Positions 18,292 through 35,358 of a stretch of 64,000 bases of DNA are shown here, in pieces. A model generated the notes under the pieces. That model worked only from the letters and a program-made list of their open reading frames with translations. It was not told the origin of the DNA and ran no database searches. Every line of letters starts with the position of its first letter. Position 1 is the first letter of the stretch. The DNA comes from Humisphaera borealis (GTDB lineage Bacteria; Planctomycetota; Phycisphaerae; Tepidisphaerales; Tepidisphaeraceae), in contig NZ_CP063458.1 of the NCBI RefSeq assembly GCF_015169395.1, positions 2,914,001-2,978,000 of the forward strand, given 5' to 3'. A program made the position numbers and the translations under genes.

Positions 18292-18400
18292 GGGTGTGGC
18301 CATTTTCCCGGGCGGCCATTGCGGTGCGGGCTTTCAGCCTGCATTTCCGCTGCACAAACATTGTTTGTTCCATAACGCTCGGAAAGATGGTCACGCCCCC
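18292..18400. repeat. Palindromic element, copy 1 (family shared with 51808-51913)
   Basis: Imperfect inverted repeat: the left end GGCCATTTTCCCGGGCGGC faces a right end whose complement reads GACCATCTTTCCGAGCG. The internal GTGCGGGCTTTCAGCCTGCA is also in copy 2. It lies 38 nt upstream of the promoter of the 13-mer array. Confidence 0.8.
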
Positions 18401-18423
18401 TGAGCCGGCCGCCACGATTTTGC

Positions 18424-18451
18424 TTGATTGACCTCTCGCATACCGTACAAT
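18424..18451 (+). promoter_or_regulatory. sigma70-like promoter leading array A
   Basis: TTGATT (18424-18429), 16-nt spacer, TACAAT (18446-18451), inside an AT-rich patch (18439-18462) that matches the patch at 34606-34629 in 21 of 24 positions. It points toward the 13-mer array and the thioesterase gene. Confidence 0.55.
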
Positions 18452-18647
18452 ATACGAACAATATCGCGCCGAGGCAAGGTGTGTCTGAACGATTCGGGCG
18501 ACCGGGTCCCTGGCGACGACCCTGGGTTTCGACGGTGCTGCGGCCGTGGGAAGCGACTTTTATGCGCGAACTTCAGCACCAATGCGGCTGTCGATCGACG
18601 CGGGTGACGCGTGCAACGGTCAACTCGTGCAACGGCCAGACAAGCTC

Positions 18648-18880
18648 GGGTTCGTTCGGCCAACAAGCCGACGGCGCAGCGTACCCGCGGAGCCTCGGGT
18701 GCCGGATGTCGCCTCGGGTTCGTTCGGCAAATGGCGCGGGCGATTCGGTGTTCGACGTTCGATGTTCGATGTCGCCGGGTTCGTTGGGCGATGTCGGGCC
18801 GCGAACCTCGGACGGCGAACCCCCTCCCTATCCCTCCCCCGGAGTACCGGAGGAGGAAATGGATCTCGGGTTCGTTCGGC
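18648..18880 (+). repeat. Array A of the 13-mer GGGTTCGTTCGGC (4 copies)
   Basis: Copies start at 18648, 18716, 18777 (one mismatch, GGGC end) and 18868; spacing 68, 61 and 91 bp. Intervening DNA is not repeated, except that 18823-18857 matches the end of the palindromic element at 28939-29073. The rest of the 18212-18960 gap holds the hairpin and promoter described separately. Confidence 0.85.
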
Positions 18881-34540: not shown

Positions 34541-34594
34541 TGTCGACAGGCATGCTGTCGACAAACACCGCGGCTGGCGGAATGCCGGCCGCGG
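34541..34594 (+). terminator. Paired hairpins before promoter of array B
   Basis: A palindrome TGTCGACAG/CTGTCGACA (34541-34563) is followed by CCGCGGCTGGCGG/CCGGCCGCGG (34568-34594) and then ATTTTTGTTGT on the plus strand, the shape of a rho-independent terminator. It sits just ahead of the array B promoter. Confidence 0.55.
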
Positions 34595-34601
34595 ATTTTT
34601 G

Positions 34602-34629
34602 TTGTCATACCGAACATTATACGTACAAT
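34602..34629 (+). promoter_or_regulatory. sigma70-like promoter leading array B
   Basis: TTGTCA (34602-34607), 16-nt spacer, TACAAT (34624-34629). The AT-rich patch 34606-34629 matches 18439-18462 in 21 of 24 positions. It points toward the array. Confidence 0.6.
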
Positions 34630-34788
34630 AAGTGCGCTGTCAAGGTCGTGACTGGCGCTGCGCTCGTGCCTTGGAGGCTGGTGGGTGTGATCCGTCTGGC
34701 TTTCGGGTCGACTCGCGATCGCAGAGTTGGGCTTGCGGTGTGGCGGCGTCCTTTTGCCCGGACTTTCGGCCCGGAGAATGACCGCCTC

Positions 34789-35358
34789 GGGTTCGTTCGG
34801 CACAAAGAGCCGCGCACGAAGTAAGCGGGAACGGCGCGACTTTGCGTTGACGTCCGCTCACTCAGTGCGCGGCGCTTGAACGGTCGTGCGGTTTCGGGTG
34901 ACGTGATTGAGGATGGGCGGTTGGAGGATTCGCGGCTTCTGGTGTGTGACGCACCTTGCACGGCTTGGAAAGCTGTGTCACGGACAGCTGTCAGGAGGTC
35001 GCCTTGGGTTCGTTCGGCGAACTAGCCGTTGGCGCAGCGTACTCGCGACGCCCCGGGTCTGGGCGCGATCTCGGGTTCGTTCGGCCAAATCGTGGGGACT
35101 GAGGATTGACGTCTTCTGGTGCGTGACGCACCTCGCACGGCTTGGAAGGTGCGTGTCACTGACGGGGTCGCTCGGAAGGAGGTTCTTGGGTTCGTTTGGC
35201 GACGTTGCCGTGGGTTCGTTTGGCAAAGTGGATGTTGGAGGACGGGCGGTTTCTGGTGTGTGGCGCACCTTTCACGGCTTGGAAAGCCTTGTCACGGACA
35301 GCCCATCGGGCGGATCGCCTCAGGTTCGTTTGGCGGAGTGGCGCTGGGTTCGTTTGGC
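34789..35358 (+). repeat. Array B of the 13-mer GGGTTCGTTCGGC (7 copies)
   Basis: Copies start at 34789, 35006, 35073, 35188, 35212, 35322 and 35346; the last four carry TTTGGC in place of TTCGGC. From 34937 the array is built from three degenerate longer units (34937-34988, 35113-35163, 35251-35302), each starting TTCTGGTG, containing GCACGGCTTGGAA or a variant and each followed by two 13-mers. The whole 34489-35421 gap is otherwise gene-free. Confidence 0.88.

Follow-up and report, generated by a model that had tools for sequence, protein, structure and literature searches.

Arrays of a 13-nt repeat in the window and in the chromosome

The window, a stretch of 64,000 nucleotides of the Humisphaera borealis chromosome (G000; 7.19 Mb, single contig), shows three clusters of the direct repeat GGGTTCGTTYGGC, named loci A, B and C, each of them preceded on its own strand by a start signature. 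The features are listed below in window positions.

18292 to 18400, no strand: palindrome upstream of locus A, which belongs to an independent repeat family and lies outside the array design
18417 to 18464, plus strand: locus A start signature, with TTGATT at 18424, 16 nt, TACAAT at 18446-18451, and, 11 bp further on, a second KWACA box
18648 to 18660, plus strand: locus A 13-mer copy 1, exact
18661 to 18715, plus strand: locus A spacer module of family C, found in 10 arrays and nowhere outside arrays in 1.18 Mb
18716 to 18728, plus strand: locus A 13-mer copy 2, exact
18729 to 18776, plus strand: locus A spacer module of ATTCGGTGTTCGATG type, family A cluster, recurring
18777 to 18789, plus strand: locus A 13-mer copy 3, one mismatch
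18790 to 18867, plus strand: locus A spacer module of CCCTCCCTAACCCTCCCCCGG type, family D, recurring in 6 arrays
18868 to 18880, plus strand: locus A 13-mer copy 4, exact
34584 to 34631, plus strand: locus B start signature, with TTGTCA at 34602, 16 nt, TACAAT, and boxes GAACATTATACGTACA
34789 to 35358, plus strand: locus B array, seven 13-mers at 34789, 35006, 35073, 35188, 35212, 35322 and 35346
51737 to 51784, minus strand: locus C start signature, with TTGACC at 51780, 16 nt, TATAAC, and boxes TAACATATACCAAACA
51274 to 51545, minus strand: locus C array, seven 13-mers, reading down, at 51545, 51504, 51480, 51454, 51413, 51309 and 51286

The sequence-only reading of this DNA had reported 18 copies of the repeat at three promoter-led loci, and these were all found (four in A and seven in each of B and C, allowing up to two mismatches), with the promoters in place, exactly 16 nt between the hexamers of each, and every copy within a cluster pointing away from its promoter. 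The layout that it had described as common to the three loci holds for the promoter followed by directional 13-mers but not for the hairpin, since B has a hairpin of different sequence from that of A, which puts this element outside the shared layout. The palindrome, of about 107 bp, is present at 18292-18400 and 51808-51913 of the window; its copies are 75-93% identical, and three of the six found in 1.18 Mb stand 10-60 kb from any array. Locus B has spacers of families B and C and of an 11-nt type. Neighbours of the three loci, where nameable, are unrelated and include carbohydrate-binding, thioesterase, epimerase and DUF1570 proteins.

The 18-copy, three-cluster observation is confirmed, and the repeat is far larger in extent than first described. 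Exact GGGTTCGTTYGGC occurs 508 times in the chromosome (297 + 211 on the two strands) and the reversed pattern, used as control, does not occur. The copies are clustered, so that an even spread at background frequency, which would have spoken against the first description, does not apply. The proposed comparison with shuffled sequence pointed the same way: 23 matches with up to two mismatches in the 64-kb window, where 4.65 were expected and the highest of 100 shuffles gave 10. Arrays were sampled in about 40 regions chosen by place, in a contiguous stretch of 1.18 Mb and in 80 kb around an integrase gene, which together gave 55 arrays with 341 sites, around half of those in the genome. The 15 arrays of the contiguous stretch indicate roughly 100 for this genome, and the copies of GGGTTCGTTYGGC are accordingly taken to sit in about 100 intergenic clusters, a figure extrapolated from the 55 arrays examined. 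Among the 341 sites, 296 are exact (with Y at position 10), 38 show one difference and seven show two. The 13-mer, which extends as YTY before and RA after, is near-invariant by contrast with the 69 spacers of 11 nt, whose mean pairwise identity is 49%.

The 13-mer contains no inverted repeat and does not have the palindromic unit of REP, ERIC or BOX elements, hairpin repeats being present as spacers only. A protein-coding repeat was rejected: the reading frame is interrupted by gaps of 19, 23, 68, 95, 125 and 134 nt, two frames are in use among the coding copies, and homologous downstream sequence in the Phycisphaerae metagenome-assembled genome (MAG) OFTM321 is in different frames. A phage origin of the arrays was rejected as well, the tandem pair being absent from the viral contig collection searched. 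Literature searches for GGGTTCGTTYGGC and its core variants did not return the 13-mer, and core variants appeared in unrelated work only; no description of the repeat or of the NALKHGL protein treated below was found in the literature searched, integron and repeat topics included.

Start signature, spacer modules and genomic context

The start signature is 47 bp long, contains a TTG-16-TANNAT promoter and lies upstream of 34 of the 55 arrays on the same strand, in support of the proposed family in which a promoter leads directional 13-mers; a recognisable signature is missing at the other 21. Control positions for the same 55 arrays gave none downstream and one in each of the two opposite-strand positions. 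The median distance from signature to array is 221 nt. In 33 aligned distinct signatures conservation is confined to -28 to +19 around ACC[G/T][A/T]ACA, in the order ATT, TTG (a -35-like hexamer), 16 nt, TAACAT or TACAAT (-10-like), and a KWACA box 11 bp further on. A strict form of the signature occurs 70 times genome-wide (2 for its control), and 10 of its 14 matches in 1.26 Mb precede an array. Its form, and in coding copies its position ahead of an ATG with a ribosome-binding-like sequence, mark the 47-bp signature as a predicted promoter.

According to gene calls made by hexamer scoring for this analysis, the arrays are intergenic, and the distance between their last 13-mer and the following gene, whichever its strand, is mostly 10-160 nt. 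That they are the leader of one class of downstream genes was rejected, with about equal numbers of same-strand and convergent genes and unrelated products, and so was a conserved structured leader (median z -0.5). In OFTM321 the arrays (L031 3290-3350 and L032 1900-1840) are followed by a conserved stretch containing TAACGTNNGGGGTGATCTGT and then TTGAGAATTGGCG, which resembles CGGGTGTGATCCGT in many H. borealis leaders, including those of loci B and C.

Spacers range from 5 to 362 nt, with 6, 10 and 11 nt predominating. The sequence between copies had been described as unrepeated, which does not hold: 99 of the 140 spacers of at least 28 nt recur and form 13 families. The module order of locus A, C-A-D, is shown in part or entirely by several other arrays. 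Some modules are hairpin repeats that are also present outside arrays, and family C is found inside arrays only. Where arrays are homologous to one another, the homology stops at a 13-mer, or no more than 6 nt from one, in 77% of cases versus 39% at random, part of the former figure being due to the 13-mer common to all arrays. The exclusion of CRISPR was right, since recurring spacers of 5-362 nt are set against the unique, constant-length spacers that CRISPR requires. Tandem units of 19, 23, 24 and 117-134 bp also occur within arrays; L057 (G000:C1:846949-847132) has a 19-bp unit, the 13-mer plus TGACTC, in ten perfect tandem copies, a recent expansion. Insertion-sequence-like repeats of 1.1-1.4 kb, 99.6-100% identical, are found within or beside arrays at L053 (G000:C1:153600-164900), L033 and L070, and divide one array into pieces.

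The NALKHGL genes and the repeat core in relatives

Four arrays have their signature 800-1140 nt upstream, and after it come a purine-rich ribosome-binding sequence, an ATG and an open reading frame, with the 13-mers near the end of that frame. These belong to the NALKHGL gene family, which comprises ten close paralogues and a distant one in this genome. All ten close paralogues contain two to five 13-mers at the 3' end, read as SRVRSAE or as GSFG; the use of two different frames indicates that the constraint acts on nucleotides. The C/T position of the 13-mer is the wobble base of the GSFG frame. The signature is recognisable upstream of nine of the ten; for L169 the signature scan was negative, and its upstream DNA nonetheless matches array signatures by blast. 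The distant eleventh paralogue, L178 (G000:C1:2104141-2104389), contains neither 13-mer nor core.

The NALKHGL protein shows no match of note in Pfam, NCBIfam or PHROGs, and no transposase family among them. Its predicted model is helical (mean pLDDT 72.7), and comparison with solved structures gave no PDB match with E below 1. With no family or structure match, a DNA-binding role of the protein stays putative.

Array L070 matches the leader of coding copies up to and including the ribosome-binding site and ATG (E 7e-19) and has lost the open reading frame, which identifies it as a deletion derivative of a coding copy. It is the only clear one, most non-coding leaders being not alignable to coding leaders. 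A search for target-site duplications or empty sites found none.

In the search of related genomes that the sequence-only reading had proposed, exact GGGTTCGTTYGGC is rare in 60 relatives (0-5 copies each; one of them is of the same genus and 65% complete), and arrays are present in OFTM321, the sole match of the tandem-pair pattern in a collection of named genomes, with 24 copies. No NALKHGL-type gene was found in OFTM321 at E<=0.001. The 9-bp core is conserved beside the gene, in further genera and families as well: AACRAACCC, the reverse complement of core GGGTTYGTT, lies within 300 nt of the stop codon in all ten homologous genes with a complete 3' end (five in G004, two in G036, and one in each of G021, G050 and G295), for about 0.005 expected per gene. 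Its orientation relative to the gene in H. borealis is opposite to that in all of these relatives. The viral-collection contigs L220 and L225 show the core at the gene 3' end, and most viral-collection relatives do not.

GGGTTYGTTYKGC is enriched over its control in a minority of genomes of the class: G011 (71 versus 4), G021 (50 versus 1), G295 (82 versus 1), G198 (46 versus 3), G095 (43 versus 1) and G160 (36 versus 0). G295, from another family, has one NALKHGL-type gene in 800 kb, with core copies at +11, +101, +112 and +123 past the stop codon, spaced like those of its solo arrays. Across 61 genomes, gene presence co-occurs with motif enrichment (Fisher p=0.0009, with an enriched class set by hand as G000, G004, G005, G011, G020 and G021). 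In family f20 the arrays consist of AATTGGGTTYGTTTT units that end in GCATAA, and as a rule some 90 nt precede the last copy. The reverse strand of these arrays (L190-L219) reads as MQNEPNF and NKPNQTQF peptides; annotations of Phycisphaerae include hypothetical proteins rich in these motifs, which would be spurious translations of the f20 repeat.

Known systems and the nature of the repeat

The design had been thought to have no counterpart in any known family, a statement corrected by the STAR elements of Staphylococcus aureus, intergenic 14-bp direct repeats of the form T(G/A/T)TGTTG(G/T)GGCCC(C/A) whose recurring spacers measure 40 bp or more (PMC3532100). The likeness extends to intergenic arrays of a short direct repeat, recurring spacers, a start signature at the head, and a copy number very different among related species. 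Sharing of modules between loci is common here and was unseen at the STAR loci studied (PMC3532100). The repeat also differs from STAR in its motif, GGGTTCGTTYGGC and not the STAR 14-mer, in a start signature that is a predicted promoter of different sequence (34 of 55 arrays), in spacers of 5-362 nt that include hairpin repeats and form 13 families, and in the presence of the repeat in copies of a gene family whose homologues elsewhere carry its core.

A REPtron consists of a RAYT transposase gene flanked by REP/BIME repeats. Here too there is a repeat-carrying gene together with solo copies (10 of 10 close paralogues in H. borealis, 10 of 10 complete genes in relatives), but the repeated unit is a 13-mer that is direct and non-palindromic and stands in arrays, and the NALKHGL protein, the one compared, shows no Y1 (RAYT) transposase match in Pfam, NCBIfam or PHROGs.

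The best explanation, put forward tentatively, is a dispersed family of STAR-like direct repeats with a REPtron-like organisation, that is, a gene bearing the repeat at the 3' end alongside numerous solo copies, in which the 13-mer may be a DNA site, most likely for the NALKHGL protein or a partner. The flip in core orientation between H. borealis and its relatives fits a DNA site and makes an RNA element of the gene's transcript unlikely.

The original proposal, a family of non-coding RNAs whose 13-mers bind a protein or an RNA as a sponge or scaffold, is improbable. In CsrB/RsmY-type sponge RNAs a short site is repeated many times behind a promoter, and the arrays share this layout, with a dedicated promoter, a fixed 16-nt spacer and all sites in the direction of transcription; C/T at position 10 would preserve pairing with G, and array regions are more structured than shuffles. 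The single-stranded binding sites that such transcripts would need did not bear out, however: the unpaired probability of the 13-mer is 0.288 versus 0.298 with shuffled spacers (p=0.32), and ten members are protein-coding. In contrast with CsrB/RsmY, there are about 100 loci, sites that are not loop-exposed, and no known cognate RNA-binding protein. The reversed core beside the homologous gene of relatives would give an RNA of different sequence, the Rfam search returned no family (tRNAs were the sole matches), leader structure is inconsistent, again with a median z of -0.5, and about half of the arrays meet convergent genes at close range.

Neutral minisatellites, driven by slippage, spread by gene conversion and segmental duplication and served by no cognate protein, are an equally doubtful account. 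The tandem units, among them the ten perfect copies in L057, and the C-A-D order common to several arrays speak for it, but the 13-mer is conserved far beyond the adjacent spacers, promoter and 13-mer stay together at many loci, and different bacterial families retain the 9-bp core at the same gene.

The genome contains one true integron integrase (IntI; 347 bits, cut-off 265), G000:C1:6021297-6022262 (L113; L117), whose stop codon lies within TGATCGATCACTTGGGCTCTTTCGGC and is followed by array-type modules; a second array starts about 1.7 kb from intI on its other side. Integron-like cassette arrays, with the 13-mer as the recombination site of this IntI and the spacers as cassettes, are very unlikely: the promoter, the modules bounded by 13-mers, the integrase and the match of TGATCGATCACTTGGGCTCTTTCGGC to the head site in about ten of the 55 arrays resemble integron arrays and CALINs, but there is no attC-type R''/R' pair within 80 kb around intI, spacers of 6 and 11 nt are too short for attC folds and none contains genes, dispersal is chromosome-wide, intI ends in relatives lack the site, and G006 has IntI without enrichment. 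The lack of attC and the two enriched relatives without integrase (G011 and G095) suggest that IntI is a neighbour that acquired an array and not the engine. At G000:C1:3346462-3348829 (L091) three tyrosine recombinase genes stand side by side, like recombinase-in-trio elements.

Under the DNA-site explanation, the 13-mer would be a sequence-specific site, and we infer that the NALKHGL protein or a partner is its most likely recogniser, the protein's step in the mechanism being likewise inferred. Coding copies would supply the protein in trans, and non-coding copies would retain two cis parts, the start signature and the site array, and spread, or be maintained, as non-autonomous derivatives. 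Spacers would have become diverse through slippage, the copying of segments and insertions of common hairpin repeats. The pay-off may lie in selfish spread or in a role for the host, for example in regulation or in the organisation of the chromosome.

Together, the repeat and the protein look like a system not studied before, and not like a handful of unusual RNAs. Quite possibly it is a new two-part system of Phycisphaerae, in which an uncharacterised protein family would recognise, by a 9-13-bp core (GGGTTYGTT...), the 3' end of its own gene and tens to hundreds of dispersed arrays, some of them promoter-led, and which would be either a new kind of mobile element or a network that regulates or organises the whole chromosome. 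For STAR-like interspersed direct repeats neither function nor spreading mechanism had been established at the time of their review (PMC3532100). The present case shows a single genome accumulating about 100 array copies, most with a predicted promoter, and a repeat tied to one protein family across several bacterial families, which provides a candidate partner that can be expressed.
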